Assembly (NCBI RefSeq): GCF_019104765.1
Contig: NZ_JAHRXJ010000011.1
Span: forward strand, 124,001 to 188,000
Source: Synechococcus sp. HK05
GTDB taxonomy: Bacteria; Cyanobacteriota; Cyanobacteriia; PCC-6307; Cyanobiaceae
Length of the DNA: 64,000 nucleotides
Direction: 5' to 3'
A model generated the notes under the pieces. The model saw only the letters and a list, made by a program, of their open reading frames with translations, was not told the DNA's origin and made no database searches. Shown one piece after another: positions 30,133-50,902 of this stretch (position 1 is the first letter of the stretch; every line of letters starts with the position of its first letter). The position numbers were made by a program, and so were the translations under genes.

Positions 30133-31443
30133 TTAAGAGGTATGCAGCTGGTTGGAAATAGAGGCAAGGAGAGGCTTGCCGTCAGATGTCAGTTGGAGAG
30201 CTTTTCTGAGCATTGAAATGGCAGACAAGGCACGAGGAACATGGGTTGGACATCCGAAACTTTCGAGGTAAGCCAACAGAGAGAGCCTAAGTTCATAGAC
30301 CGTTCCAACAAGTGAACGGAGAAACCTGTCAAATATTTGATCACCAACATAATTACCACTCACAAGAGAAAGCAGCATGCGGTCAATGGCCCGGTATATA
30401 TACCGAGCTTCTGTCAGATACGAAGGGCGACAGTTTTGGTCCCCGAGGGGCTGAATAACGGAGATAGATTTGAACAACTTAGCAGCCTCCGAAAGAAGCC
30501 TATCGAGGGTAGGCGCAGTAACGGAACGGAAGACTCTGTCTGTGTCGCTGGCTAAGGCTTCTGCGTATCCGAACATAACCAGTTCAAAAGACCTGGCGCA
30601 GGGTATTTGAGATAAATAGCAGAAGTGGCTGACATGAAAAAAGGGAGACAGGCCACGATCAGTACGATGTGAGACGAGCCATGAGATGTTGCCTCCCTTT
30701 TCGGATCTGCTCAGGCGGTTGTCATAGTCATGAGAATCTCTTTGGATTACAGGAACATTAAGGATACCGTAGGACACGGAATGCTCAGAATGAAATTGAA
30801 GTTGCTGATAGACAAGCGAATAGACATACTCTGGATAGTGATAGGAGAGAATTGTCGCTAAGACGTCACGTCTATAAATATGGCTGCCAATATAAGCGGC
30901 CCAGTCGAGTGGTCCCAAGGCATTGAGAATAGAGGAATAAGACGAACGAGCAATAGAAGATGGATTGGAAATGGCATTGAAGAGATTACTGGCACTATTT
31001 AGATGCGCAGAGTTAGTAGTAAAGAGGCTTGGGGCTTTCAGAATATCCCCTGAAGAGCTATATCCAATATTAGATGCACCGATTGCAAGGACGTCAAAGC
31101 CTGAATGCCTCATGGCTTCAACAACACGCGCTAAGAGCTTTAGGTCGACGAAGTCAGTTTCACCGAGGATGAGGATGTAGTCGCCAAGCCCATTGATAAC
31201 AAGCTTGATTCTTGATAAGTTCTCTTCGCAGCTGAGAAGATACCGATCAGATCTAACGCAGTTAATGCGTACTCGATCATTAGGATTCGCAGTGAAATCA
31301 TGCATAGCGGGGTTATTAAGCAGAAATGTGCAATCGACAGTTACTGACGCATCATCAACAAGGATGAACTCTTGTAGTTGACGGTAAACAGGCGTATCTG
31401 CAGGGTTGCCAACGCAGGGAATAACAAGAGAAATATTCAGCAC
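30133..31443 (-). CDS. GT2-like protein of an unrecognised family (paralogue A)
   Basis: 436 residues. The N-terminus SLVIPC (residues 5-10) and the ILVDDASV stretch resemble the start of GT2 (GT-A fold) glycosyltransferases. Residues ~72-100 read CEENLSRI...ILILGETDFVD, and residues 177-192 read GPLDWAAYIGSHIYRR followed by VYQQL. All of these are matched in the protein at 49,559-50,902, so the two are homologues. A sugar-transfer role in surface glycan assembly is inferred from fold and context only. The gene is AT-rich and Ser/Leu-rich, because its coding strand is the pyrimidine-rich one. No close neighbour shares its strand. Confidence 0.65.
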   Translation of the reverse strand: MLNISLVIPCVGNPADTPVYRQLQEFILVDDASVTVDCTFLLNNPAMHDFTANPNDRVRINCVRSDRYLLSCEENLSRIKLVINGLGDYILILGETDFVDLKLLARVVEAMRHSGFDVLAIGASNIGYSSSGDILKAPSLFTTNSAHLNSASNLFNAISNPSSIARSSYSSILNALGPLDWAAYIGSHIYRRDVLATILSYHYPEYVYSLVYQQLQFHSEHSVSYGILNVPVIQRDSHDYDNRLSRSEKGGNISWLVSHRTDRGLSPFFHVSHFCYLSQIPCARSFELVMFGYAEALASDTDRVFRSVTAPTLDRLLSEAAKLFKSISVIQPLGDQNCRPSYLTEARYIYRAIDRMLLSLVSGNYVGDQIFDRFLRSLVGTVYELRLSLLAYLESFGCPTHVPRALSAISMLRKALQLTSDGKPLLASISNQLHTS

Positions 31444-31496: not shown

Positions 31497-32552
31497 CTAG
31501 TTGTGTGTTCTAATCAGGTCATTCAGAAACCCGCAACAGTCGGAGCTGCTGAATGGGGGTGCGGCCAGCCAGGGCCATATGACACCTGCGGCCGTTATAG
31601 ATCGCCAGATAGCGCGGTAGCCAGTGGTTCCGTTCGGTTGAGGTCTGAAAGGCCATCGAGTACGCCCACTCCACCAGCAGGGTCTTGATGAACCGCTCGG
31701 CTTTGCCGTTTGTTCGTGGGGTGTATGGCCTGGTGCGTTTCGGGATCAGGCCCAGTGCGCTGCAGGCTTCTCGCCAGGGTTTTGAGCGGTAGGCGCTGCC
31801 GTTATCGGAGAGCACTCTCTTGCAGCTGATCCCCTGACCATCGAACCAGGCCACGGCTCGCAGCAGAAAACCCACCGTGGTTGCTTGCTTCTCATCCGGC
31901 AGCACCTCGACGTAAGCCAGTCGCGTGGCGTCGTCGATGGCCACATGGGCCTTCTCATAACCCGCACCACGGGAGGAGCCCAGGCGTCGATCTCCGGTGA
32001 TCCGGTGACCGACGCGCTCAAAGCGGGCGAGCTGTTTGGTGTCGACGTGGATCATGTCGCCTGGCCGTGCCCACTGGTACCGGCGCACAGGCTCTGCAGG
32101 CTGGAGGTTCTTGAGCCGGCCGAGACCCTGGGCCTTGAGCACCCGGCCCACGGTGGAAAGCGGGGCCGCCAACACCCTGGCCACTCTTCTGAGTGTGCAG
32201 CGCTCATGGCGGAGGTCAACGGCGCGTTGCAGTTGCTGTGGATCGAGCGTCCGCCGCTGGGTGCGGCGAACACTGCGTCGATCCACCAGTGCAGCAGCAC
32301 CGCCTGCGCGGTAGCGCGCCAGCCACTTGTAGGCGCTGCGGACGCTGATCCCAGCCTGGGCAGCCAGCGTTGGGAGCGGCAGATGCTCCTCAATGTGTCG
32401 ACGCAGCAACCGTTCACGGCCGAGGGGTGTCAGCCGAGCATTCGGGTGGGTATGCATGGGTTGTGAGGTCAGTGGGTCGGAGGTGACACCCGGACCATGA
32501 CGACCTCACACCCCTTTGTCAGCTGAACAACCTGCTGGGACTACACAACTAG
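31497..32552 (-). mobile_element. Complete IS481-family insertion sequence
   Basis: The element spans 31501-32548, bounded on both sides by CTAG (31497-31500 and 32549-32552). The ends are imperfect inverted repeats. Starting from CTAG, the left end and the reverse complement of the right end agree at 23 of 30 positions by hand alignment, including the first ten bases CTAGTTGTGT. IS481-type elements are known to prefer CTAG-centred targets, so CTAG is probably the duplicated target core. It lies between paralogue A and the rfbS-like gene. Confidence 0.85.
31519..32457 (-). CDS. IS481-family transposase
   Basis: 312 residues, apparently intact. The N-terminal helix-turn-helix (LAAQAGISVRSAYKWLARYR) is followed by an rve/DDE integrase core with acidic residues in DMIHVDTKQLARF, VLSDNGSAYRS and TNGKAERFIKTLL. 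The C-terminus has the usual YNGRRCHMALAGRTPIQ. High GC compared with the flanking island DNA suggests recent transposition from a GC-rich background. Confidence 0.93.
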   Translation of the reverse strand: MHTHPNARLTPLGRERLLRRHIEEHLPLPTLAAQAGISVRSAYKWLARYRAGGAAALVDRRSVRRTQRRTLDPQQLQRAVDLRHERCTLRRVARVLAAPLSTVGRVLKAQGLGRLKNLQPAEPVRRYQWARPGDMIHVDTKQLARFERVGHRITGDRRLGSSRGAGYEKAHVAIDDATRLAYVEVLPDEKQATTVGFLLRAVAWFDGQGISCKRVLSDNGSAYRSKPWREACSALGLIPKRTRPYTPRTNGKAERFIKTLLVEWAYSMAFQTSTERNHWLPRYLAIYNGRRCHMALAGRTPIQQLRLLRVSE

Positions 32553-35215: not shown

Positions 35216-36238
35216 TCAGGTAGAAGGTGGGACAGAGCTGAGAAGCTCACTCAGACCTTGATCAATACTGATACTTGGCTGCCAACCGAATGTGTTACTT
35301 GCGCAATGATTAAGCGATATAAAGACTCGCTGATCGGATATACGCGCAGGAATATAGTCAATGTTAAGCTCTTGGTGATCCACGCCAAGATGTTTACAAG
35401 CTAAACGAAGTAACTCGAGGATGCTGAGGCTATTATTAAAGGAGCCTCCGACGTTTGCTGTGACTGAGGGACACTTACCGGTAGCGGCTAGCTCATACAG
35501 AGTGCAAACATCTTCCACATGTAGGATGTCGCGAACTTGCTTTCCGTTTCCGCTGATGGTAAAGCGATGCGCAGGGTTAGACTTAGCAAGGGTTACTTGA
35601 GACAGAAACCAACCCACCCAACCTTGATCATAAGAGGCTTTTTGACCTAGACCATAGATAGTAGAATGTCGAAAGCAATAAGTGTGGAGGCCGTAGATTC
35701 GAGCATAATCATTAGTATACTGGTCAGCCGCACCTTTTGAACATCCATAAGGGGATGAGAAATCAAGTGGAAGAGACTCATCAAATCCTTCCGGATAATT
35801 AGAGCAGATATATCTTGTTTCAGTTTCACGATATTCAATCCATTCGAGATCTCCATAGACTTTATTGGTAGAGGCATAAATAAATAATGAACTGGGAGAC
35901 TGGGTTCTTACTGCCTCGAGAAGACGTAATGTGGAATAGGCATTGCAGTTAAAGTCGTACAATGGATTGTTAATGGACTTGGTCATTGCAACCTGTCCGG
36001 CCAAATGGAAAATGGCAGAAATATCGGAATTGATAAAAGCTAGATCAAGTGTTGAAATGTCGCCAAGTATGAATCTGAAATTGCAAAGACTCTCCGGCAT
36101 CTCTTGGATAAAGGATAGGTTTGCGGCAGAGCCAGGTCGATAGAGGTTATCAATTCCTATAACATAACAACCCCTTTTGAGCAGTCTTTTGGTCAGAGTA
36201 GATCCAACAAAACCGCAACAACCGGTAACAATATACAT
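35216..36238 (-). CDS. rfbE: CDP-tyvelose 2-epimerase (CDP-paratose 2-epimerase)
   Basis: 340 residues starting MYIVTGCCGFVGSTLTKRLL (NAD loop GxxGFVG); the frame to 36343 adds an unconserved leader. The match to RfbE is close: HLAGQVAMTKSINNPLYDF, STNKVYGDLEWIEYRETETR, LDFSSPYGCSKGAADQY (Tyr-Lys pair), YDQGWVGWF and ISGNGKQVRDILHVEDV. RfbE epimerises C2 of CDP-paratose to CDP-tyvelose, a 3,6-dideoxyhexose of O-antigens. It is AT-rich and faces away from the rfbS-like gene. Together with rfbF, G, H and S it completes the pathway within this window. Confidence 0.88.
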   Translation of the reverse strand: MYIVTGCCGFVGSTLTKRLLKRGCYVIGIDNLYRPGSAANLSFIQEMPESLCNFRFILGDISTLDLAFINSDISAIFHLAGQVAMTKSINNPLYDFNCNAYSTLRLLEAVRTQSPSSLFIYASTNKVYGDLEWIEYRETETRYICSNYPEGFDESLPLDFSSPYGCSKGAADQYTNDYARIYGLHTYCFRHSTIYGLGQKASYDQGWVGWFLSQVTLAKSNPAHRFTISGNGKQVRDILHVEDVCTLYELAATGKCPSVTANVGGSFNNSLSILELLRLACKHLGVDHQELNIDYIPARISDQRVFISLNHCASNTFGWQPSISIDQGLSELLSSVPPST

Positions 36239-36971
36239 TGCGGAAAAGAAGTTTGATATTACATAGTAGCATAGGCATTGGGAATGGTCATAGCAGCAAG
36301 GGATTGCGGAAAAAGCAAGAAGCTTGCTTAGGAGGCAATACAATGTCTAATAGGGATGCACATAGGTCGTGGTAGAGAGGATTACCTTAGGCTTGTAATG
36401 TGCCGGATATAGGATACGGGCAAATGGTCTGCTTGTGGTCGCCGTGGTACAAGTTCTTAACGATGAGGCACGGATGGTCATCTTAAGACAACGTCTAACT
36501 CGAAAAGTGCACACTCTCAGATCCTGATGCAATGGATTGATATAAGTGGGCGGCAACGAAGCATTGAACGGTCATAGATAGCTCATCGAGGTTGCCGGAA
36601 TCTGTGGAAATATCCATCACAATGCCTTTGCTGTAATTAACCACACACTCGAGGATCACAGACTATTGCATCAAACTGCAGACTTCCAACAAGATGGCAA
36701 TAGCGGTCCTTTCCTTACACATACTGGCGATCGAGATAGCCATTAGCTCCAGATTCTTGTGATTATTATTGGTCATGATGATCATCTGAGCACTTGCGGA
36801 CTTATCTGCAATAATCAACTAAGAAGGGCTCTCTCTTGAGGCCAAAGAAGCCATTCACTCGGCTAACAGTCAGGGGCTGGCATTGTGAATCTGACTGACA
36901 TGACTCCCTTCTGTCCGACGACAAGCAGGTTGAGGGGCGCTTTGCATCAATGAATTGTTACCCGTTTTAAA
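36239..36971. other. Intergenic stretch with no identifiable gene
   Basis: About 730 bases between rfbE and transposase debris. The purine bias of the block to the left fades here. A minus-strand open stretch around 36,490-36,660 translates to protein-like sequence (containing NLDELSMTVQCFVAAHLYQS) but matches nothing I recognise. No RNA or repeat is seen. Confidence 0.5.
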
Positions 36972-38430: not shown

Positions 38431-39201
38431 ATGAAGGCAGTAATTCTTGCCGGAGGCCTGGGAACTCGCATTTCCGAGGAGACAGGTAGTCGTCCAAAGC
38501 CAATGATCGAAATAGGCGGAATGCCAATTCTTTGGCACATCCTCAAGATCTATAGCCACTTCGGCATTAAAGATTTCATTATCTGCTGTGGCTACAAAGG
38601 GTACGTGATCAAGGAATACTTTGCCAACTATTTTCTACACTCTAGCGATGTAACTTTTGACATGACCGATAATACTATGAAAGTGCATAGTCGCAAAGCC
38701 GAACCCTGGAAGGTAACGCTCGTGGATACTGGCGAAGCAACCCTCACCGGGGGACGCTTGCGAAGAGTACGCGAACATCTTGATGATGAAGCCTTCTGCT
38801 TCACGTACGGCGATGGCGTTGCCGACGTTAATATTTCTGCTCTAACCGCTTTTCATAAAGCCGAAGGTCGCAAGGCCACCCTGACGGCCGTCCAGCCTCC
38901 CGGACGTTTCGGCTCACTCGCTTTTGAGCGCGGTCGGGTTTTGTCATTCGAAGAGAAGCCACAAGGCGATGGCAACTGGATCAATGGTGGTTTTTTTGTC
39001 TTAGAGCCTTCAGTGATTGATCTTGTAGATGGTGATCAATGCACCTGGGAGCAGCAACCACTTCAAACCTTGGCTGAGAGTGGTGAACTTTCCGCATACC
39101 ATCACGAAGGATTCTGGCAGCCTATGGATACGCTGAGGGATAAAACACTGCTAGAGGATCTCTGGAAGCGAAATCAGGCTCCTTGGAAATTCTGGGGCTG
39201 A
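38431..39201 (+). CDS. rfbF: Glucose-1-phosphate cytidylyltransferase
   Basis: 256 residues, family length. The nucleotidyltransferase loop is [20 protein letters not shown] and PKPMIEIGG; specificity motifs [31 protein letters not shown] and [10 protein letters not shown] are those of CTP-dependent RfbF. It makes CDP-glucose, the entry to all CDP-3,6-dideoxyhexoses. It is the first gene of a run continuing through at least the TPP enzyme with gaps of 4 bases or less, and it is less AT-rich than the block to its left. Confidence 0.94.
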
Positions 39202-39205
39202 GCGG

Positions 39206-40306
39206 ATGACGAGCATACAGTCGTTTTCTCATTCCGATCGCCAGTTTTGGCACAGCCAAAAAGTGTTGCTGACGGGTCATACAGGCTTCAAAGGGAGCTG
39301 GCTAGCTTTCTGGCTCAAGGAGCTGGGTGCTCAAGTCACCGGGGTAGCGTTGGAACAAGAAGGGCGCCCCAACCTCTTCGATCAGCTCCAGCTGAAGCGG
39401 CTGATTGACCATCGCGTAGGAGATATTCGAGATCCTGATTTACTGAAAGCGATTGTGAATGAAACACAACCCACCGTTGTGTTTCACCTTGCCGCGCAAC
39501 CATTGGTTCGGCATAGCTACGAAGAGCCGGTGGCCACCTGGAGCACGAACGTGATGGGGACCATTCATCTGCTTGAGGCTCTCCGGCTACTCGATCAGCC
39601 CTGCAGCACGGTGCTAATCACCACAGACAAGGTGTATCGAAACAACGAGTGGGTCTATGGCTACCGCGAGAACGACCCCCTCGGTGGGCATGATCCCTAC
39701 AGCAGCAGCAAGGCGGCCGCGGAGATCGCCATCGCCAGCTGGCGCTCCAGTTTTTGCGGCACGGCTCCCCATCAAACGCCGCATCTACGCGTTGCCAGCG
39801 CGCGTGCCGGAAACGTAATCGGTGGTGGCGATTGGGCCCAAGATCGAATCGTTCCTGATGCGATGCGTGCCCTCAGCCGAGGCGAAGCCATTGTGGTTCG
39901 CAACCCGAGAGCCACTCGCCCCTGGCAACACGTTCTGGAACCTCTCGGGGGCTATCTACAGCTGGCCGAGTACTTGTCCACATCCGCAGAGTACTCTAGT
40001 GCATTCAATTTCGGTCCGCACCTCGAGGCGAACCGCCCAGTACGTGAGCTGGTTGAAGAGGCACTGCGCCACTGGCCCGGAGCTTGGCACGACCAGAGTG
40101 ATCCCCATGCCTTGCATGAGGCCAGTCGTCTAAATTTGGTGATCGACAAAGCCCATCACCAATTAGGATGGGCTCCCCGTTGGGACTTTGCGACAACGGT
40201 AGAGCGCACCATTAACTGGTACCGACGCGTTCAGGACGGGCAGGCTTCTGCCCTTGAATGCTGCCGGGACGATCTGGCTGCTTTCCTCACCCCCTCTCCT
40301 GCGTGA
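39206..40306 (+). CDS. rfbG: CDP-glucose 4,6-dehydratase
   Basis: 366 residues. The SDR loop is LLTGHTGFKGSWLAFWL; the active site TTDKVYRNNEWVYGYRENDP is the diagnostic RfbG variant, and YSSSKAAAEI supplies Tyr-Lys. NVIGGGDWAQDRIVPD and RPWQHVLEPLGGYL complete the signature. It converts CDP-glucose to CDP-4-keto-6-deoxyglucose. It starts 4 bases after rfbF; its TGA overlaps the rfbH GTG (GTGA). Confidence 0.94.
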   Translation: MTSIQSFSHSDRQFWHSQKVLLTGHTGFKGSWLAFWLKELGAQVTGVALEQEGRPNLFDQLQLKRLIDHRVGDIRDPDLLKAIVNETQPTVVFHLAAQPLVRHSYEEPVATWSTNVMGTIHLLEALRLLDQPCSTVLITTDKVYRNNEWVYGYRENDPLGGHDPYSSSKAAAEIAIASWRSSFCGTAPHQTPHLRVASARAGNVIGGGDWAQDRIVPDAMRALSRGEAIVVRNPRATRPWQHVLEPLGGYLQLAEYLSTSAEYSSAFNFGPHLEANRPVRELVEEALRHWPGAWHDQSDPHALHEASRLNLVIDKAHHQLGWAPRWDFATTVERTINWYRRVQDGQASALECCRDDLAAFLTPSPA

Positions 40307-41817
40307 CATCCCTCACAGAGCTCAAAAGCCAGATCCTCAGCCTCACCCGCGATTATGCCCGACAGGCCCATGCGGCCTACCGCCCGGCTGCGGATCCGAC
40401 TCGTTCCCCGTGGACCCAAGGGAGCCCGATTCCTTACGCCGGGCGTGTGTTCACGGAGACCGAGGTGGAGGCAGCCGTATCCGCCACTCTCGATTTCTGG
40501 CTCACACTGGGCTCAGAAGGCGCCGCCATGGAGCAGGAGCTGGCCGCCTTCTTGGGCATTCGCCACTCTCTGCTTGTTAATTCAGGTTCCAGCGCGAACC
40601 TGGTAGCAATCTCGGCACTCACCTCGGCCAAGCTGCCAGAAGAACGCCGGATCAAGCCCGGTGATGAAGTGATCACGGTTGCGGCGGGCTTTCCCACAAC
40701 GGTGGCCCCGATCGTGCAGGTGGGTGCCGTGCCTGTATTCATTGATGCTGATCCAATAACCGGCAATGCGCGCTGCGATCAGCTAGAGGCGGCCTACATC
40801 GCAGGTAAAACCAAGGCCGTGATGATGGCCCACGCCTTGGGCAACCCCTTCGATCTGTCTGCCACCCTGGCCTTCTGCCAGAAGTACAACCTCTGGTTGG
40901 TGGAGGACAACTGCGACGCCCTTGGTTGCAGCTACTCGATGCCACGGCCGCTGGCCGAGAGCCTGGGCTTCAACGAAAACAGCCCTGGCCTTGATGATGG
41001 GCCGGATCGTGTTGTTCGCTGGACGGGGACCTGGGGCGACATCAGCACCCAGAGCTTCTACCCGCCGCACCACCTCACCATGGGTGAGGGCGGCGCAGTG
41101 AACATCGTGCGCGATCAGAAACTCAAGGTAATCGCCGAGAGCTTTCGCGACTGGGGCCGGGACTGCTGGTGCCCTAGTGGCATCGACAACACCTGCAATA
41201 AGCGCTTCGGCTGGCAGCTGGGAGAGTTGCCTGAGGGATACGACCACAAGTACACCTACAGTCACTTGGGCTTCAATCTCAAGCCGCTGGATCCTCAGGC
41301 GGCTATCGGCCGGGTGCAGTTGCGGCGCTTACCAGAGTTCATTGAGGCCCGCAAGCAGAACTGGGAGACGTTGCGCCGGGGCCTGTCGGCTCAGGAGGAC
41401 GTCTTGGAATTCGCCCTGCCCACCCATGCAACCCACTGGGATCCGGAACAGGGCTTCTGCTGGGATAGCAGCGGTTGCCGCACCGATTGCTCCTGGTTTG
41501 GCTTCAAGATCGCCGTGAAACCAGGGGCGGCTTTCAGCCGTACGCAGCTGGCTCAAGAATTGGATCGCAACCTCATTGGCAACCGCATGCTTTTCGGCGG
41601 TAACCTGTTACGCCAACCAGCCTTTGTGCAGCTGCTCCATGATAATTCAGCAGCCTTACGAGTGGTAGGGGAGATGGAGGGCTCTGACGAAATTATGAAA
41701 AATACGCTTTTTCTTGGAACTTATCCGGGGTTGACGCAGGCAATGCTGACCAAGGAAGTGGAAACGATACAGACCTTCGCCCACAGCTTTTGCACGACTG
41801 GTAAACCTGTCTTTTAA
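40303..41817 (+). CDS. rfbH: CDP-4-keto-6-deoxyglucose 3-dehydrase (E1)
   Basis: 504 residues from a GTG overlapping the rfbG stop. This is a DegT/DnrJ-fold protein in which the usual PLP lysine is replaced by His in SFYPPHHLTMGEGGAV, the hallmark of the PMP-dependent E1 enzymes. The 2Fe-2S ligands appear as CWCPSGIDNTC (C-x-C-x7-C), with a further Cys upstream in EDNCDALG. It removes the 3-hydroxyl to give CDP-4-keto-3,6-dideoxyglucose after reduction by a reductase partner (AscD/E3 type), which is not in the window. It is longer than the ~437-residue Yersinia and Salmonella forms because of an N-terminal extension and an insert near residues 215-240. Confidence 0.93.
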   Translation: MTSLTELKSQILSLTRDYARQAHAAYRPAADPTRSPWTQGSPIPYAGRVFTETEVEAAVSATLDFWLTLGSEGAAMEQELAAFLGIRHSLLVNSGSSANLVAISALTSAKLPEERRIKPGDEVITVAAGFPTTVAPIVQVGAVPVFIDADPITGNARCDQLEAAYIAGKTKAVMMAHALGNPFDLSATLAFCQKYNLWLVEDNCDALGCSYSMPRPLAESLGFNENSPGLDDGPDRVVRWTGTWGDISTQSFYPPHHLTMGEGGAVNIVRDQKLKVIAESFRDWGRDCWCPSGIDNTCNKRFGWQLGELPEGYDHKYTYSHLGFNLKPLDPQAAIGRVQLRRLPEFIEARKQNWETLRRGLSAQEDVLEFALPTHATHWDPEQGFCWDSSGCRTDCSWFGFKIAVKPGAAFSRTQLAQELDRNLIGNRMLFGGNLLRQPAFVQLLHDNSAALRVVGEMEGSDEIMKNTLFLGTYPGLTQAMLTKEVETIQTFAHSFCTTGKPVF

Positions 41818-41820
41818 TTC

Positions 41821-42930
41821 ATGATCGACGAGAAGCTGCTGATCTTTGGGGCCGGCTCACATGCACGCAAGCTGGCTGACTCCCTCCGTCGCAGAGGGGA
41901 TAATGTGCTTGGTTTCGTTACTACTCACCAATCCGCCCTCAAAGAATTAGAAGGGCTTCCCGTGTTCACCTGGGAAACTGTGCCACATTACCTACGAGGT
42001 CAGTGCCCGATTGCCTGCGGCATCTTTAATCGGTCTGATGCCTATGACCAACTTGCTAAGACAATCCGGGCCAACGGCTTTAGCCGCATTCTCTGGCCTT
42101 GGGATTACTATCCTTACCTACACCACGATCTGGGCTGGTGTTACTGGCTCGATCCAAATCCCAGGCCGCCTTCTGCCTGGCGACAAGATTCAGATTACCA
42201 AGAAATTGTATCCAACCTGGCAGATTCTGAGAGCAGGAAAACACTCGACCGCATCCTGGCCTTCCGTTCGGGTAGCGATCTTGAATTCGCCTCATACACA
42301 AGCCACGAGACTCAATACTTCAATCCCCTTACGCTAGGCGCTCTGAATCCAGGAAAGCCAGTCTCTTTTCTCGATGTGGGCGCTTATAATGGCGATACAC
42401 TCGAGTCGCTGATCCAATATGCTGAAGTTACCAAAGCAGTACTGATTGAACCTGACCCAGACAACTTGAATCTACTCAGCCTAAATCTGGATCGCCTGAC
42501 TCGTCTTCATCAAGGCTTAAACCCTTATGTATTACCGGTTGGGGCGGGCGCTGAACATTGCTCGCTGAGCCTGTCTGGAGAGGGAGAGGCCACAACGGTC
42601 AGCATCAATGGTGACACCGACAGCAGAACAACCCGCTTCGCCACAATCACACCGATCGACAGCATCATGCCTGCTGAGTGTTTTGATTTTATCAAGGTCG
42701 ATGTTGAAGGACACGATCTACAAGCCTTGCGAGGCATGCGAGAACTCTTGCACAGATCTCATGCTGTCCTCGCTATCTCTCTTTACCACCGCCCCTTAGA
42801 TGTCGTGCATTTACCGCTGGCTGTGATCGATCTTCTAGATGGCATTCCCTATGAATATTTTATACGCCAGCACATGCATAACTCCTTCGATACTGTATTT
42901 TATGCGATTCCAGGAAGAGTGAAGCGATGA
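41821..42930 (+). CDS. FkbM-family methyltransferase with N-terminal PglD-like Rossmann domain
   Basis: 369 residues. Residues ~1-90 (LLIFGAGSHARKLADSLRRR, then GLPVFTW) resemble the nucleotide-binding N-terminus of PglD-type proteins. The C-terminal half is an FkbM SAM methyltransferase: VSFLDVGAYNGDTLESL (SAM loop), VLIEPDPDN, then DFIKVDVEGHDLQALRGM. It probably O-methylates a sugar of the glycan made by this operon. It starts 3 bases after rfbH and its stop overlaps the next start (ATGA). The two-domain arrangement may tie methylation to nucleotide-sugar handling. Confidence 0.82.
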   Translation: MIDEKLLIFGAGSHARKLADSLRRRGDNVLGFVTTHQSALKELEGLPVFTWETVPHYLRGQCPIACGIFNRSDAYDQLAKTIRANGFSRILWPWDYYPYLHHDLGWCYWLDPNPRPPSAWRQDSDYQEIVSNLADSESRKTLDRILAFRSGSDLEFASYTSHETQYFNPLTLGALNPGKPVSFLDVGAYNGDTLESLIQYAEVTKAVLIEPDPDNLNLLSLNLDRLTRLHQGLNPYVLPVGAGAEHCSLSLSGEGEATTVSINGDTDSRTTRFATITPIDSIMPAECFDFIKVDVEGHDLQALRGMRELLHRSHAVLAISLYHRPLDVVHLPLAVIDLLDGIPYEYFIRQHMHNSFDTVFYAIPGRVKR

Positions 42931-44771
42931 AAGTATCTGACTACGTTGCTCAGCGGCTGTCATTGCTTGGCATTAGAAGGTGTTTTTCAGTGACGGGTGG
43001 AGGTGCGATGCATCTCAATGACAGTTTTGGCGAAGCCAACGGGATTGCCTGCACCTATCTACACCATGAGCAAGCCTGCGCTATTGCAGCAGAGGGTTAT
43101 GCACGTATTACAGGAAAACCGGCCGTTGTGAATGTCACCTCGGGGCCCGGAGCAATTAACGCACTCAATGGTGTTTTTGGCGCTTTCACAGACTCGATTC
43201 CGATGATTATAGTTTCAGGCCAAGTAAAAACCGAAACTCTACTCGAAAGAGTTGGCACTCTTCCGCTGCGTCAACTCGGAGACCAGGAGGCCCGATCCGA
43301 AGCTTACATCCCAGCTTTTGTAAAATCATTTCAATCTCTCCGCACTGCCGAGGAATGCATTGCGGCAATTGATCGTGCAATCCGATTGACCTCAAGCGGA
43401 CGACCTGGTCCATGTTGGATTGAGATCCCCGTGGACATTCAGGGAAGCCGCTCTGCGTTGCTAAAGGACAACCTTCAGCAGCCCTTGCTCCATACAGCCC
43501 CGCAAGACCATGTCTCCACAGTTTCCGAAAAAGATCTGGCTGACTTCACCCACTTGCTGAGGCAGTCAAAGCGTCCCTTACTACTTCTGGGGACCGGTGT
43601 ACGCCTTTCGGGAGCACAAAAAGAAGTACTGCAGTTCGCCGAATCTCTTCAGCTTCCCATCGTCACTGCTTGGACCCATGACATCATTGATAATAACCAC
43701 GAACTATTCATTGGCCGCCCTGGCACCATCGGGACGCGACCCGGCAACTTTGCAGTTCAGACTTGCGATCTGTTGATTGTTCTTGGCTCTCGCCTAAATA
43801 TCCGTCAAGTAAGCTATAACTGGGCAGCATTTGCCAGTCACGCATCTGTTGTTATGGTTGATATCGATGAAGCCGAACTTAAAAAGCCTTACCTAGATAT
43901 CACATTGTCTATCCAAGCTGATATAAGGCATTTCATCACAGCAGCACAAGCATATCTGGCGACTTCATCACCCAACATCGCTTCTGAACAATCCTTAGGG
44001 CAGCGCCGCCAATGGGTTTCAAGGTTGCGCACAGTTGCTCTTGATCATGCTGCAACCGCAGCGGACTATCGGCAGCCTCCGTTGGGGAGCGGCATCAACC
44101 CATACCATTTCATTTTTGCGCTGGCACGTCATCTGAAGGGTCATGAACGCATCATCTGTGGGGACGCGACGGCCTGCATTGTTCCTTTTCAGATCCTTCC
44201 GCTACGTGACAAGCAGCGCATGTTCAGCAATAGTGGGTGCGCTTCTATGGGCTACGACCTTCCTGCTGGGATCGGAGCTGCCTTGGCGGCTCAGGATACT
44301 GGTGAGAGAGGATCTACAGTTGTGTTGGCAGGTGATGGCTCGTTGATGATGAATATCCAGGAACTGCAGACTCTGGCTGCTTCCAACCTTGATCTGCTGC
44401 TTTTTATTCTGGATAACAATGGTTATCTTTCGATTAAGCAGACCCAGTCCAACTTCTTTGGGCGTGAGCATGGGGCCTCGCCTGCCTCTGGTGTTACATT
44501 TCCCGACTTTGCCCGTGTGGCCGAAGCTTTCGGTCTGCCAGTTACCTTGCTAAACGATTACGGTGAGATTGAAAATACCCTGACGAATATATTACACGAG
44601 ACGAGTGGTCCCCGTGTGTGCGTGGTCAAGCTCTATGAAGAACAAGAATTCGAACCACGCTTAAAGTCTAAAATTGTTGACGGTGTTATCCATACCCCCG
44701 AACTCGATGATATGTTTCCACATCTGCCTATCGAAAAGCTAGACTCAATACGCGCTTATCTACTCAGGTAG
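42927..44771 (+). CDS. Acetolactate-synthase-like ThDP enzyme (YerE-like candidate)
   Basis: 614 residues with the three-domain ThDP fold. The catalytic Glu is in YLHHEQACAIAAEGYAR; TSGPGAINALNGVFGAF follows; the ThDP/Mg motif VLAGDGSLMMN plus downstream LDNNG is near residue 470. True acetolactate synthases serve amino-acid synthesis. Its position directly after rfbFGH recalls YerE of Yersinia, a ThDP enzyme that transfers a two-carbon acetyl unit to CDP-4-keto-3,6-dideoxyglucose to build the branched sugar yersiniose. That role is inference; no YerF-type reductase is identified. Its start overlaps the FkbM stop by 4 bases. Confidence 0.78.
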   Translation: MKVSDYVAQRLSLLGIRRCFSVTGGGAMHLNDSFGEANGIACTYLHHEQACAIAAEGYARITGKPAVVNVTSGPGAINALNGVFGAFTDSIPMIIVSGQVKTETLLERVGTLPLRQLGDQEARSEAYIPAFVKSFQSLRTAEECIAAIDRAIRLTSSGRPGPCWIEIPVDIQGSRSALLKDNLQQPLLHTAPQDHVSTVSEKDLADFTHLLRQSKRPLLLLGTGVRLSGAQKEVLQFAESLQLPIVTAWTHDIIDNNHELFIGRPGTIGTRPGNFAVQTCDLLIVLGSRLNIRQVSYNWAAFASHASVVMVDIDEAELKKPYLDITLSIQADIRHFITAAQAYLATSSPNIASEQSLGQRRQWVSRLRTVALDHAATAADYRQPPLGSGINPYHFIFALARHLKGHERIICGDATACIVPFQILPLRDKQRMFSNSGCASMGYDLPAGIGAALAAQDTGERGSTVVLAGDGSLMMNIQELQTLAASNLDLLLFILDNNGYLSIKQTQSNFFGREHGASPASGVTFPDFARVAEAFGLPVTLLNDYGEIENTLTNILHETSGPRVCVVKLYEEQEFEPRLKSKIVDGVIHTPELDDMFPHLPIEKLDSIRAYLLR

Positions 44772-44805: not shown

Positions 44806-45915
44806 GTGATCTCCCCCTCTGACCGTTTCATCTTTGAAAATCTCTTCGTATTAGAGCTTGCAAACAACCACTGGGGAAACCTAGACCGAGGTCTAAAGAT
44901 TATTCGTGACTTTGCAACGGTTGCTCGTGTGAATTCGGTTCGCACGGCAATCAAACTACAGTTCCGTGACGTGGACAGTTTTGTACACCCGACTTTCAAG
45001 GGATATTCCGAGTCTCGATATATTAAGAAGACAGAGGCAACTAAGTTGTCCATCGATGAGTTCAAGGCCCTAATCGATGAAGTTGTGAAATGTGGCTGCG
45101 TTCCCATGGCAACTCCTTTTGACGAAGCTTCTGTTGATCTATGCGATACGTTTAATCTTCCCATTATCAAGATTGCCAGCTCAGACATCGCTACATGGCC
45201 CTTGCTTGAGCGTGTGGCGAAGCTTCGTAAGCCTGTAATCATCTCTACAGGGGGTGCTTTTGATAAAACTATTGATGAATGCGTTCGCTTCTTCGAGAAT
45301 CGCAGTATACCTTTAGCGATTAATCACTGTGTCTCTCTTTACCCATCGCAGGACTGTGAGCTGGAGCTCAATCAGATCGATTACCTTCGTGAGCGCTTCC
45401 CTACTCATGTAATCGGCTTTTCTACCCATGAAATGACGGACTGGCAAAGCTCAATGCTGATCAGCTATGCCAAAGGCGCACGTACCTGGGAGCGCCATAT
45501 TGATATTGATCATGATGGTGTCCCCGTAAGTCCTTACTGTTCTCTGCCACATCAAATTGATAGTTGGTTCAGAGCTTATCACAAGGCCGTTGAAATGTGT
45601 GGCGGCCCAAGTAATGGAAGGCGGAACATCACGGAGAAAGAGCGCCGCTACCTTGATGAACTAGTTCGTGGGATTTATGCCCGCCGCGACTTACCTGCGG
45701 GGTATGTATTCAACTCGGAGACTTTCGATGAAGACTTCTACCTAGCGATCCCATTGCACAAAGGACAACTTTCCTGCCGAGAAGTGATTAATGGGGAGAA
45801 GTTAGTTAAGGCAATTTTCACGGATGACATGCTTCTAGTGGACCATATTGACGGCCCCTACAACGAAAACCCCGTGTTGCGCCAGTTTATCCTCGACCGA
45901 GGCATTCAAGTCTAG
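44806..45915 (+). CDS. NeuB-family (nonulosonate/sialic acid synthase-like) protein with SAF domain
   Basis: 369 residues from a GTG. The TIM-barrel NeuB part shows FVLELANNHWGNLDRGLKII, CVPMATPFDEASVDL, IKIASSDI, KPVIISTGGAF, and VIGFSTHEM. A C-terminal antifreeze/SAF domain is present (AIPLHKGQLSCREVINGEKL). Family members condense phosphoenolpyruvate with a hexosamine or sugar to form a nine-carbon ulosonic acid. No NeuA-type CMP transferase or NeuC is in the island, so the substrate may differ. It begins 34 bases after the ThDP gene. Confidence 0.82.
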   Translation: MISPSDRFIFENLFVLELANNHWGNLDRGLKIIRDFATVARVNSVRTAIKLQFRDVDSFVHPTFKGYSESRYIKKTEATKLSIDEFKALIDEVVKCGCVPMATPFDEASVDLCDTFNLPIIKIASSDIATWPLLERVAKLRKPVIISTGGAFDKTIDECVRFFENRSIPLAINHCVSLYPSQDCELELNQIDYLRERFPTHVIGFSTHEMTDWQSSMLISYAKGARTWERHIDIDHDGVPVSPYCSLPHQIDSWFRAYHKAVEMCGGPSNGRRNITEKERRYLDELVRGIYARRDLPAGYVFNSETFDEDFYLAIPLHKGQLSCREVINGEKLVKAIFTDDMLLVDHIDGPYNENPVLRQFILDRGIQV

Positions 45916-45951: not shown

Positions 45952-46917
45952 ATGAATATTTTGCTGACGGGTGGGACTGGTTTTTTTGGGAAGGCGCTGG
46001 TCCCCTGGCTTTTGTCCATGTTCTCCGCTACAGGATCAACGATCACAATTTTAAGCAGGAATCCCGAGTCTTTTCTGAGGCGAAATCCTCAATTCTATAA
46101 ACACCAAAGTCTACGGATCCACGAAGGCGACATTCTACATATTGATTCTTTACCTCAATCTGATTCTTTCTCCCATATTATTCACGCCGCGACCGATTCT
46201 ACATTTGGCCCATCACTTACGCCGCGAGAGCGTTTTGATCAGATCGTCATCGGAACTCGTAATTTGCTTGACTTTTCGGTCAGCAATCGAGCCCAACGAT
46301 TCCTTTATGTAAGTTCTGGGGCAATCTATGGTCCTCAGCCAGAGGGCTTGCAGGGTTTTCCTGAGGATTGGATCGGAAGTCCCGTCATCTCTAATCCCGC
46401 CAATGCGTATGGCGTAGGCAAACTAGCTGCGGAGCATCTCTGCCATATTTACCGTTCGATGTATGAACTGGAAGTGGTAATCGCCCGTTGCTTCGCCTTC
46501 GTGGGGCGAGACCTCCCGCTTGACGTGCATTTCGCGATCGGTAATTTCATTCGCGATGCTCTCTTTGAAAAAGCGATCAGAGTATTTGGCGATGGTTCGG
46601 CAGTCCGAAGCTACCTTGATCAGGATGATCTAGCTCATTGGCTTACAACCATACTCACGGATGGTCGCAACGGTGAAGCCTACAATGTTGGATCCGATGA
46701 AGCAGTAAGCATTCGCGAATTGGCCAATCTCGTGCGTGACCTTGTGGCTCCAGAAAAACCAGTTATCATCGAAGGGGATATTCGTCTCTCCAGCACCCGG
46801 AATCGTTACGTGCCAGACATCAGCAAGGCACGTAAGGAGCTTTTCCTTAATGTGGGTGTTCCTCTTTCCCAGGCGATCCTCAACACTGCTGCTGCTCACA
46901 TCCAACACGAATGCTGA
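45952..46917 (+). CDS. NAD-dependent epimerase/dehydratase (extended SDR)
   Basis: 321 residues. NAD loop NILLTGGTGFFGKALVPWLL; catalytic YVSSGAIYG and YGVGKLAAEHL (Tyr-Lys); VIARCFAFVGRDLPLDVHFA and FGDGSAVRSYLDQDDLAHWL place it near GDP/dTDP-hexose dehydratases, reductases and epimerases. The substrate is probably a nucleotide sugar from this operon; it could be the ketoreductase for a YerE-type product. It overlaps the HAD gene by 7 bases. Confidence 0.8.
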   Translation: MNILLTGGTGFFGKALVPWLLSMFSATGSTITILSRNPESFLRRNPQFYKHQSLRIHEGDILHIDSLPQSDSFSHIIHAATDSTFGPSLTPRERFDQIVIGTRNLLDFSVSNRAQRFLYVSSGAIYGPQPEGLQGFPEDWIGSPVISNPANAYGVGKLAAEHLCHIYRSMYELEVVIARCFAFVGRDLPLDVHFAIGNFIRDALFEKAIRVFGDGSAVRSYLDQDDLAHWLTTILTDGRNGEAYNVGSDEAVSIRELANLVRDLVAPEKPVIIEGDIRLSSTRNRYVPDISKARKELFLNVGVPLSQAILNTAAAHIQHEC

Positions 46918-47654
46918 GAATGCCAATATCCGCCACCCCATTGAAAAACAGGCAAACTGCAGTGCTCTTTGATCTGGATGGTACGTTAGTGAATTCATCA
47001 GCAGGAATTCTGGCTAGTCTTGATTATGCGTTCCGAGCGAATGGGACGTCACCAATAGCTGCACTCACAGATCTCATGGTTGGTCCGCCGCTGCATGAGA
47101 TCGTCGAGTCCTTATGTCCAGAGATATTACCGTCAGGAATAGACATGATTATTGAGTCGTTCAAAGCTCATTACGACTCCATCGGTTACTTACAAACGAC
47201 ACCGTACGACGGGATAAATCAAATGCTAAATCGGCTCTTAGATGCGGGAATAATACTGGCTATTGTCACCAACAAACGTGCTCATCCAACAGAGCTAATT
47301 TTAGATCAGCTAGGATGGAACGACTGCTTTTCATACGTGTACTGTCCAGACTCTTTTCAGCCCACCCCTTCGCACAGAAAATCTGGATTGCTCCGGAAGA
47401 TTATGCACGATAATGGGATTAACCCGCCAGATTGTGTCTACGTCGGAGACCGCAAGGAAGACTGGCATTCGGCCCGCGCAAATAACATACGTTTTGGATG
47501 GGTGGAATGGGGATACTGCATACAGAAGCCTGATTTTGATGATAATTCCTTCGTGCTTACAGTACCTGATGAGGAGATCATCCTCGACGCCATATGGAAC
47601 GCTCCCGAACTCCGAAGAGAATCACTTGATGGAGGTGGCAAGCTCAATCAATAA
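46911..47654 (+). CDS. HAD-superfamily phosphatase (phosphoglycolate phosphatase-like)
   Basis: 247 residues from ATG 46911 (46920 is also possible). HAD motifs: I FDLDGTLVNSSAG, II IVTNKR, III within HRKSGLLRKIM, and IV VYVGDRKEDWHSARAN. A cap domain lies between I and II. In an operon with a NeuB-type synthase it may dephosphorylate the ulosonate phosphate product or a sugar phosphate precursor. It is the last gene of the operon. Codon use is more AT-rich than upstream. Confidence 0.8.
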   Translation: MLRMPISATPLKNRQTAVLFDLDGTLVNSSAGILASLDYAFRANGTSPIAALTDLMVGPPLHEIVESLCPEILPSGIDMIIESFKAHYDSIGYLQTTPYDGINQMLNRLLDAGIILAIVTNKRAHPTELILDQLGWNDCFSYVYCPDSFQPTPSHRKSGLLRKIMHDNGINPPDCVYVGDRKEDWHSARANNIRFGWVEWGYCIQKPDFDDNSFVLTVPDEEIILDAIWNAPELRRESLDGGGKLNQ

Positions 47655-48119: not shown

Positions 48120-49289
48120 TTATTGGACAGTTCCGGCCCCTGAAAACGTTAACCCTGGGCAGGAGGAACAGGATTGAGCCTCAGTGTAGACCTCGTGGGG
48201 AGTTCTGCCTCCCAGAGCGCTGTGTGGCCTTACATGGCAGTACCTCCAGAGGAAGCGGGCCAGGCTGATCTCAGCGTGCCAACCATCGCTATAGGCGTGC
48301 AAGTACACCTCCTCGTACTTGACTGTGCGCCATAGCCGTTCCACCAGAATGTTTTCGTAGCAGCGTATCCTTCCTGACCGGCTGAACTTGATCTCCTCGG
48401 CCTGCAGCCTTGCCACGAAGTCGCCAGAGGTGAATTGGCAGCCCTGGTCGGAATGGAAGATCTCTGGTTTGCGATCCCATGCCAACGCCATCTCCGGGGC
48501 ATCGAGACAGAACTCCGTGTCAAGGCTGGTGGAAAGCTTCCAGATGAGCACGTTTCTGGAGAACAGATCCACGATCGCCAGCAGGTAGAGGAATCCCTTC
48601 TGCAGCGGGATATAGGTGATATCGGTAGCACAGACCTGATCCACAGCCATGAACGTGCTGACATCCACAAGGCAGGGAAACCGCTCGGATGGATTTCCTG
48701 GGACTGTGTTTCGGGGCTTCTGGTAGATCGCCCGTAAACCCAAGCGGCGCATTAGGTTTCGCACCCGGTCACGAGTGATCGGGATTCCTTCTCTGGCCAG
48801 GTAGTCCACTATCCGGCGACTACCCCTGCAGGGATCCTCCAGGTATATAGCGTCGATACTGGCCATGATCCGTAGTGTCGATGCCCGCAACGGCATGGGC
48901 CTGTAATACAGCGTGGATCTGGGTAGGCCCAGAAGCGCACATTGGCGGCTGACGCTGATCGTGGGGTGCTCGTGATCGACCAGCTTGCGCAGTTCACGGG
49001 CATCAGAGCAGCTGAGATTTGTTTTGAGCCACTCCAGCTCCATCTGCAGCTTGCCGATCTGCTGGAACAGCTCTGCCTGCTTGGCCTGCCCTTCCTCCTT
49101 GTCCTTACTCTTCTTGCCCCTGGTGAACAGTTCGCTGGCACCGTCCAGCAGCTGACGCTTCCACTGACTCACCTGAATTGGGTGGATGGCGTGGTCGGCG
49201 GCGATCTCTTGGATCGTTTTGGGGCCACTGATCGCCTCCATGGCGACACGGGCCTTGAACTCGGGGCTGTGGGTGCGGCGCTTGCTCAT
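48120..49289 (-). CDS. IS3-family transposase, OrfA and OrfB in a single frame
   Basis: 389 residues. Residues 1-90 are OrfA-like (HTH in SPEFKARVAMEAI and HPIQVSQWKRQLLDGA, then a leucine-zipper region). Residues ~95-380 are OrfB with DDE residues in ATDITYIPL, FHSDQGCQF and NILVERLWRTVKYEEV. Most IS3 elements need a -1 frameshift between OrfA and OrfB, but here one frame covers both. It appears intact, although the last residues run past the proposed left IS end. Confidence 0.9.
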   Translation of the reverse strand: MSKRRTHSPEFKARVAMEAISGPKTIQEIAADHAIHPIQVSQWKRQLLDGASELFTRGKKSKDKEEGQAKQAELFQQIGKLQMELEWLKTNLSCSDARELRKLVDHEHPTISVSRQCALLGLPRSTLYYRPMPLRASTLRIMASIDAIYLEDPCRGSRRIVDYLAREGIPITRDRVRNLMRRLGLRAIYQKPRNTVPGNPSERFPCLVDVSTFMAVDQVCATDITYIPLQKGFLYLLAIVDLFSRNVLIWKLSTSLDTEFCLDAPEMALAWDRKPEIFHSDQGCQFTSGDFVARLQAEEIKFSRSGRIRCYENILVERLWRTVKYEEVYLHAYSDGWHAEISLARFLWRYCHVRPHSALGGRTPHEVYTEAQSCSSCPGLTFSGAGTVQ

Positions 49290-49558: not shown

Positions 49559-50902
49559 ATGTTTGACTTATCTATTGTGGTTCCGACCACGAAGGCCGAT
49601 GGACACATAGGCTTCTGGCAGGATTTAAAAGGTGGGGCACTTAAAGACAGCTCTCTTCGAATACAGATAGTGGGACTGATAAATCTGCAAAGAGGTGACA
49701 GAGCCGGAAAGAGAATAGAACTCGAAATCGAAGGAAAGCATCAACTTGTCAAGGCGTATTCTACCAATTTTGCCCCGACATGCGAAGACAACCTGGCCCG
49801 CCTATTAGATTTTATAGGCATCCTTGGGAATCATATTATCATAATTGGAGATCATGACATTATACAGTGGGATTATATACCGTCGTTACTCCAGGTTTTC
49901 GATCAAGCAGATCCGAAACCTGCAGCCATTGGCATAGGAGTCCTGTTGCAAGAAGAAAAACCCGATGGAAGTTATATACGCATACATACACTGCCTGGGC
50001 TCAAGAGTGTGGAGTCAAACTCATTATTAGAAAGGACCCTGCAGAGGTTAGGATCTGGGCAGTCATTTCCACTATCAGCTGGTTACCCCGCACTCGTCGC
50101 ACAATATGGACCTATGGACTGGGCAGCATTCATCGGGAACCATATCTTCACGCGAAACCATCTTTCGCGAATATTGAGTTTCAGGTTTACTTCTGCACTA
50201 TATCGTCATGTTTACCAACAACTCAGCGCTAGCTACGCCAGCACTGCCTCCTACGCGGTCTTTGCGCTACCCGTCGTAATACGCAGATCTCGTCAGTTTT
50301 TTTATTCTGATAATGATACTGACAAAGAGAACGTACATAACTATAGATTTGAACAGTATCAAGGAGGAATTGGGCGATCAGCAGAGTTTCAATTGGCGCA
50401 TCTTGATTCTCTGATAAGAGTTCCAGAGCCCCTATCTAGGCTTGTGCTCTGTTCTCGAGCAGTAGGAATCACTAGATCAGAAGACGGAATATTATTGTAC
50501 AAGCAAGCACCATTTTGGCAAAAATCATTAGCTTGGTGCGTAAAAGGACTCCAACTATCCGCTGGTGGAGAGAGCTTCCATCTTAAAGAAGCAACGACCG
50601 CATGCTTTGCCCAGCAAGATATCAGAATAATTATGGACTACTTAAGCTTCGCAAGTGAACTGTATGATAAGGTCTTAGTTGAGATGGGATTAATCCCCAA
50701 CAACTCAGAGTCTCGAGCGTGTTTCAATAAAGCTCTCCACTATCTTGGGATAGCTAATCAGGGCATGAATTATAATGAATATGCTTTGGACGCTGCCTTT
50801 TTCATTAACGAGTTGCTCGAAATGTCAAAGAGCCATTGCGACTTTGGCACAATCCCAACTCGAGCCTACAGTGCATATATATTAAATGGTAAACAGCCTT
50901 GA
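49559..50902 (+). CDS. GT2-like protein of an unrecognised family (paralogue B)
   Basis: 447 residues. Homologous to paralogue A at 30,133-31,443. SIVVPT at residues 5-10 is the GT2-like start; residues 75-102 read CEDNLARL...IIIIGDHDII, where the D-x-D could be the GT-A metal site; residues 184-199 read GPMDWAAFIGNHIFTR, followed by ILSFRF and VYQQL. Both proteins then share an SY-containing strand ending in PV. The C-terminal ~180 residues are helical and diverge. Likely a glycosyltransferase of surface polysaccharide synthesis; this is inference. It is AT-rich. Confidence 0.65.
   Translation: MFDLSIVVPTTKADGHIGFWQDLKGGALKDSSLRIQIVGLINLQRGDRAGKRIELEIEGKHQLVKAYSTNFAPTCEDNLARLLDFIGILGNHIIIIGDHDIIQWDYIPSLLQVFDQADPKPAAIGIGVLLQEEKPDGSYIRIHTLPGLKSVESNSLLERTLQRLGSGQSFPLSAGYPALVAQYGPMDWAAFIGNHIFTRNHLSRILSFRFTSALYRHVYQQLSASYASTASYAVFALPVVIRRSRQFFYSDNDTDKENVHNYRFEQYQGGIGRSAEFQLAHLDSLIRVPEPLSRLVLCSRAVGITRSEDGILLYKQAPFWQKSLAWCVKGLQLSAGGESFHLKEATTACFAQQDIRIIMDYLSFASELYDKVLVEMGLIPNNSESRACFNKALHYLGIANQGMNYNEYALDAAFFINELLEMSKSHCDFGTIPTRAYSAYILNGKQP

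Follow-up and report, generated by a model that had tools for sequence, protein, structure and literature searches.

The window analysed here is a 64,000-nucleotide stretch of the Synechococcus sp. HK05 genome, to which all coordinates refer, and the gene in question, at 42927-44771, encodes a thiamine diphosphate (ThDP)-dependent enzyme that we call P0001. It is the fifth gene of a tight eight-gene operon with the order rfbF-rfbG-rfbH-FkbM-ThDP-NeuB-like-SDR-HAD, in which adjacent genes either overlap or are separated by no more than about 37 bases. As shown below, P0001 belongs with the YerE-like enzymes, which branch CDP-4-keto-3,6-dideoxyglucose (PMC12247030), and the genes of its relatives are accompanied by one of several non-homologous partner genes, represented here by the NeuB-like gene. 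To judge from these sequences, the operon probably specifies a form of the YerE-like pathway that attaches a long branch, leading to a caryophyllose- or erwiniose-type sugar. The original prediction had described an acetolactate-synthase homologue downstream of rfbH and an FkbM gene, and its list of genes was correct through the ThDP gene; it ended, however, before the NeuB-like, SDR and HAD genes, which change the interpretation. The operon and one related gene in the window are as follows.

38431-39201, plus strand: rfbF, glucose-1-phosphate cytidylyltransferase (TIGR02623, 479 bits against a cut-off of 300)
39206-40306, plus strand: rfbG, CDP-glucose 4,6-dehydratase (TIGR02622, 498 bits against a cut-off of 278)
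40258-41817, plus strand: rfbH, CDP-4-keto-6-deoxyglucose 3-dehydrase (NF011936, 629 bits against a cut-off of 423)
41821-42930, plus strand: FkbM-domain protein, possible sugar O-methyltransferase (TIGR01444 and PF05050 in the C-terminal part; weak NeuD-like match to TIGR03570 in the N-terminal part)
42927-44771, plus strand: P0001, YerE-like ThDP enzyme (PF02776/PF00205/PF02775; JanthE the best match in sequence and fold)
44806-45915, plus strand: NeuB-like phosphoenolpyruvate (PEP)-dependent ulosonic acid synthase, GTG start (PF03102, fold and subfamily alignment)
45952-46917, plus strand: SDR-family NAD(P)-dependent enzyme, putative branch-ketone reductase (PF01370)
46911-47654, plus strand: HAD phosphatase, phosphoglycolate-phosphatase-like, putatively dephosphorylating an ulosonic acid (PF13419)
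35216-36343, minus strand: CDP-tyvelose 2-epimerase (RfbE)-like gene (1orr, E 4e-95; 9rl0, E 6e-98)

The open reading frame (ORF) of P0001 is complete, encoding 614 amino acids from an ATG start that overlaps the FkbM stop codon by 4 bases (ATGA, 42927-42930). Within the rfbH ORF the NF011936 match begins at residue 19, and the true start may lie inside the ORF, after its first codons; in the RfbE-like ORF homology starts at residue 36. The RfbE-like gene represents an alternative use of the same CDP-sugar, and the branch point between tyvelose and a second product, proposed from the rfbFGH context, is thus real.

All three domains of a ThDP enzyme (PF02776, PF00205 and PF02775) are present in P0001, and the catalytic Glu48 and the ThDP motif GDG (469-471) are retained. 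Its nearest NCBIfam models are acetolactate synthases, far under their cut-off (287 bits against 738), and it scores under the cut-offs of all acetohydroxyacid synthase (AHAS) models. The genome carries its own IlvB on a separate contig, 32% identical to P0001. The suggestion that P0001 is not an amino-acid enzyme had come with a proposal for a phylogeny, which was carried out on 28 sequences, including 12 AHAS proteins (from this genome, E. coli and other genomes) and, as YerE-like references, PpYerE and JanthE. The 12 AHAS proteins formed one side of the tree with support of 100, and P0001 fell on the opposite side, together with PpYerE and JanthE. Constraining AHAS and P0001 to a single clade cost 118 log units and was rejected (approximately unbiased (AU) test, p-AU 1.2e-33). 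Given this test and the separate IlvB, a biosynthetic AHAS identity for P0001 was rejected; the clustering with IlvB that the original prediction had named as counter-evidence was thus looked for and not seen.

Structural comparison agreed with this placement. The solved structures best matched by sequence were JanthE (8rph, E 4e-97, or 5e-175 with a profile) and 5ahk, and an AlphaFold model of P0001 (mean predicted local distance difference test (pLDDT) score 88.1) had JanthE as its closest fold, with a template modelling (TM) score of 0.87-0.88. We take 5ahk to be PpYerE, from its title (Pseudomonas protegens) and the mention of a PpYerE structure in PMC12247030. The identity of 8rph as JanthE is given by its Protein Data Bank title and by PMC12188165. 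With rfbFGH directly upstream, and rfbF or rfbH near the genes of 60 of 78 relatives, the proposed YerE-like branching function of P0001 is well supported.

P0001 is nevertheless distinct from both references. It shares with JanthE (Janthinobacterium sp. HH01; 8rph, 8rpi, 8rpj) a GYLxIKxTQ region and a C-terminal extension, but where P0001 has GDG, D119 and S502, JanthE shows CDG, V121 and a Met, and JanthE falls in a separate clade, whose members L011 and L129 carry DmpF and DmpG rather than NeuB. PpYerE lies on the same side of the tree as P0001 relative to AHAS, but outside the P0001 clade, and keeps the AHAS-like F, M and D where P0001 has D119, S502 and N291. The position of D119, V121 in JanthE, is occupied by F in AHAS and PpYerE; that of S502 holds M or L in AHAS, PpYerE and JanthE; and T506 aligns with a W of the genome's own IlvB. 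The residues that hold FAD in JanthE, Y268 and P293, correspond to I268 and R293 in P0001. R293, the arginine to which binding of the second keto acid is attributed in AHAS, was considered as a marker and found not to be diagnostic, as it is kept by AHAS, PpYerE and most relatives.

The protein encoded immediately downstream has a NeuB barrel with an SAF-like C-terminal part, and its fold matches were 3g8r, NeuB and PseI, followed by KDO8P and DAHP synthases. In common with NeuB/PseI/SpsE (3g8r, 1xuu, 8h2c) it conserves E17, K50, K122, H208 and H231, which correspond to the PEP and metal residues of NmNeuB. It differs from them in its linkage to a ThDP enzyme, in a score of 110 bits against NeuB and PseI cut-offs of 400 and 340, and in having Ile at the site of NmNeuB Arg314, which is marked by the structures 4ipi (R314A) and 4ipj (R314K). 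The features of NeuB or PseI proper, an Arg314 that recognizes the N-acetyl group and an equivalog-level score, are thus both absent, and the change of Arg314 to Ile indicates that the protein is probably not a sialic-acid-type synthase. A sialic-acid-type residue was accordingly not favoured as its end product; in addition, no CMP-sugar synthetase, which an activated ulosonic acid residue would be expected to need, was seen in the operon.

Among close members of the NeuB-like subfamily (cyanobacterial, 77-79% identical, the window's own included), a ThDP gene was present in all five loci that were uncut, the sixth being truncated by a contig end; three loci with remote NeuB proteins had no ThDP gene. 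All six close cyanobacterial loci have a HAD gene shortly after the NeuB-like gene, with the SDR gene between the two in the window.

To describe the neighbours of P0001-like genes more widely, we took relatives from GTDB genomes (80) and viral contigs (12) together with 20 regions from cyanobacteria, clustered the neighbouring ORFs and built hidden Markov models from them. Three non-homologous families recurred beside the ThDP gene: NeuB-like (PF03102), HpcH/HpaI-like (PF03328) and HMGL-like (PF00682). Exclusivity was counted over 78 non-redundant loci, each flanked by 3 kb or more on either side. A single partner was found in 64, two partners in only 2 (15.9 expected) and none in 12 (27.8 expected); none of 20,000 shuffles gave a double-partner count as low as 2. 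Partner type changed at least 13 times on the ThDP tree, an earlier tree in which own_L003 and PpYerE form long branches and AHAS is represented by only two proteins. Unlike partners were found even beside ThDP enzymes that are 71-72% identical, both in cyanobacteria (L125 with HpcH, L126 with NeuB) and in two other genomes (L071 with HpcH, L039 with NeuB). Partners that are nearly exclusive and yet swap in this manner are expected of functionally equivalent, interchangeable genes.

Partner genes could in principle be associated with rfbFGH rather than with the ThDP gene. As controls, we used 20 cyanobacterial rfbH loci from genomes lacking a strong ThDP match. One of these proved to carry a ThDP gene, and an HpcH gene too. 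In the remaining 19 rfbFGH loci, all without a ThDP gene, neither NeuB-like nor HpcH genes were present, and one had an HMGL-like gene at a distance of about 6 kb. NeuB or HpcH was therefore found in 16 of 21 cyanobacterial ThDP loci against 0 of 19 without ThDP (Fisher 3e-7), showing that the partners track the ThDP gene and not rfbFGH. In the loci without ThDP, rfbH was mostly followed by an SDR gene and often by a second one resembling RfbG or RfbE; these SDR genes probably belong to the tyvelose route.

The 12 loci with none of the three partners were inspected individually. L129 and L011 encode counterparts of DmpF and DmpG, which exceed the cut-offs for acetaldehyde dehydrogenase (TIGR03215) and 4-hydroxy-2-oxovalerate aldolase (TIGR03217), respectively, and these DmpFG loci fall in the JanthE clade; L013 has a similar but weak HMGL match. 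L007 carries a PanB equivalog (TIGR00222) above cut-off. Ketopantoate, the product of PanB, is a 4-hydroxy-2-oxo acid, as is the product of DmpF and DmpG. HpcH was found at greater distance in L062 and L066, a weak HMGL match in the adjoining gene in L095, a remote NeuB in L128, and in L130 an aminotransferase, a possible source of a 2-oxo acid. NeuB-like, HpcH/HpaI, HMGL, DmpFG and PanB all come from families able to make 4-hydroxy-2-oxo acids.

The viral contig L007 (4920-7551) has an rfbH-like gene, then a YerE-like gene and immediately PanB, which suggests a donor for a dimethylated or other hydroxymethyl branch. From the DmpFG loci L129:6436-11112 and L011:4986-8598 an erwiniose-type branch is predicted for a marine-type cyanobacterium and for viral contigs. 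In L128 (4335-6176, minus strand) a NeuB domain is fused with a xylose-isomerase-like TIM barrel in a 614-amino-acid ORF near a diverged ThDP gene. Three loci, L122:11402-15771, L126:4184-9211 and L132:7967-12431, contain a linked 3-dehydroquinate-synthase-like cyclase and SDR, a pair common to many related loci and joined in L122 and L126 by a sugar-kinase-like gene; it is conceivable that this pair supplies a carbocyclic sugar part.

Partner genes were also correlated with the active site. Of the 66 loci that have a partner, 59 showed both D119 and S502, against 5 of the 12 that have none (Fisher p 6e-4, a value that ignores kinship among the loci). D119 may touch the donor hydroxyls, although the model is weak in this region (pLDDT <50 at residues 115-119). 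Residues 119 and 502 are encoded at approximately 43281-43283 and 44430-44432, and could serve as a sequence mark for hydroxylated donors.

Characterized YerE-like enzymes differ in the donors they use. YpYerE, of the yersiniose type, takes pyruvate as donor and CDP-4-keto-3,6-dideoxyglucose as acceptor (PMC12247030), the acceptor also proposed for P0001. ErwE also acts on this CDP-sugar, but leaves pyruvate unused and favours 4-hydroxy-2-oxo acids as donors, a preference similar to that of MMAR_2332 (PMC12247030). In vitro, 4-hydroxy-2-oxovalerate is among the substrates accepted by JanthE (PMC12188165). As functional models for P0001 we use ErwE of Pectobacterium atrosepticum (erwiniose) and MMAR_2332 of Mycobacterium marinum (caryophyllose), likened to it by their described activities. 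Caryophyllose is 3,6-dideoxy-4-C-[D-altro-1,3,4,5-tetrahydroxyhexyl]-D-xylo-hexopyranose (PMC5706390); by our own derivation, this structure fits a 3,6-dideoxy-4-ketohexose carrying the acyl group that a 3,7-dideoxy-2-heptulosonate leaves on decarboxylation, once the newly formed ketone has been reduced. In the literature examined, M. marinum papers included, a NeuB-type donor-maker for ErwE or MMAR_2332 was not described.

We infer the following route, which assigns donor, acceptor, product and the roles of the SDR, HAD and FkbM proteins. RfbF, RfbG and RfbH would produce CDP-4-keto-3,6-dideoxyglucose, the RfbH step also needing a reductase. NeuB-type synthases produce 3-deoxy-2-ulosonic acids, and the NeuB-like enzyme would condense PEP with an aldose or aldose phosphate to give such an acid, which is a 4-hydroxy-2-oxo acid, while the HAD phosphatase would strip off any phosphate. 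P0001 would then decarboxylate the ulosonic acid, and the acyl anion so formed would be joined to the CDP-sugar at its C4 ketone; the resulting tertiary alcohol would bear a polyhydroxylated acyl branch, whose ketone the SDR would reduce. The solved structures nearest to the SDR are epimerases and decarboxylases, and genes related to it turn up in about 30 of the relatives' loci. The end product would be a long-branched sugar of the caryophyllose/erwiniose type, probably destined for lipopolysaccharide and possibly O-methylated by the FkbM protein; it is the FkbM gene alone that suggests O-methylation. The chain length of the branch cannot be read from the sequence.

The partner families can make 4-hydroxy-2-oxo acids, the type of donor that ErwE prefers, and this favours a long branch over an acetyl branch. 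The yersiniose-like product of the original prediction, with an acetyl branch derived from pyruvate, is accordingly less likely: the conserved partners indicate a dedicated 4-hydroxy-2-oxo acid as donor, and D119, S502 and T506 are unlike the residues of AHAS and PpYerE. P0001 could still act as a classical YerE, with reduction of the acetyl branch giving a yersiniose-like sugar and the NeuB-like and HAD proteins making a separate ulosonic acid residue for the same polysaccharide. The rfbFGH context agrees with this, YpYerE combines pyruvate with the same CDP-sugar (PMC12247030), and the downstream SDR could serve as a YerF-type reductase. Independent pathways, on the other hand, do not explain why NeuB, HpcH and HMGL interchange beside the ThDP gene and are missing from rfbFGH loci that lack it, nor was the CMP-sugar synthetase of such a pathway seen in the operon; we regard this explanation as unlikely. 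Less likely still is that the ThDP and NeuB-like enzymes share a pathway with another ketone acceptor or a lyase role, rfbFGH serving only tyvelose. The RfbE-like epimerase in the window and the 18 of 78 loci without rfbF or rfbH within about 10 kb are consistent with such a scheme, but rfbF or rfbH is close by in the other 60, from many phyla, many flanks are short, and here all the genes stand in one operon. It is highly improbable that a biosynthetic or catabolic acetolactate synthase sits in the cluster by chance: P0001 is of the same superfamily and has these enzymes as its nearest, though sub-threshold, models, but the tree, the IlvB elsewhere and the finding of a P0001 relative in just one of 13 congeneric genomes argue against it.

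Several observations also weigh against the long-branch pathway. The HMGL and HpcH families were matched at superfamily level only, and co-occurrence cannot separate donor synthesis from another shared role. The 18 loci without nearby rfbF or rfbH count here as well, as does the relatedness of the loci behind the D119/S502 statistic. JanthE also takes pyruvate in vitro. The 12 loci without a standard partner were inspected after the fact, and three of them with full context, L028, L091 and L140, show no donor-maker candidate.

More generally, we lean, if only slightly, towards the view that YerE-like enzymes form cassettes with an interchangeable donor-maker (NeuB-type, HpcH/HpaI, HMGL, DmpFG or PanB), that the NeuB-type product is decarboxylated into a carbon branch instead of being kept as a sugar acid, and that the branches of many bacterial surface sugars can be predicted from the partner gene. 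A NeuB-type donor-maker was not found described in the literature searched; the most relevant papers lay outside that search, and the partner idea may be partly known. If the neighbouring gene does make the donor, the branch could be forecast from the genome, and sialic-acid-synthase-like genes would gain a new role as makers of carbon-branch donors. This would also explain why, in many phyla, genes within surface-sugar clusters are annotated as 'acetolactate synthase' or 'sialic acid synthase', and would provide a source of enzymes for chiral tertiary alcohols. SAR11_0527, in hypervariable region 2 of SAR11, is an 'acetolactate synthase' among sugar genes that was filed under amino-acid metabolism (PMC2217521), and may likewise be a branching enzyme under a wrong name.

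The source genome is 2.53 Mb in size and 99.97% complete, and its gene content resembles that of a picocyanobacterium. At E 1e-70, relatives of P0001 were found in 1/13 genomes of the genus and 30/299 of the order, and none were found in plasmids (tblastn, E 1e-60) or E. coli genomes (blastn); the locus is patchy and probably mobile. Two proteins flanking the cluster, encoded at 49559-50902 (plus strand) and 30133-31443 (minus strand), are alike by eye, the first having no Pfam or NCBIfam match. Transposase-like ORFs also lie on both sides, at 31519-32457 and 48120-49289 (both minus strand), and these ORFs, with the presence of the gene in a single genome of the genus, suggest a mobile surface-sugar island.

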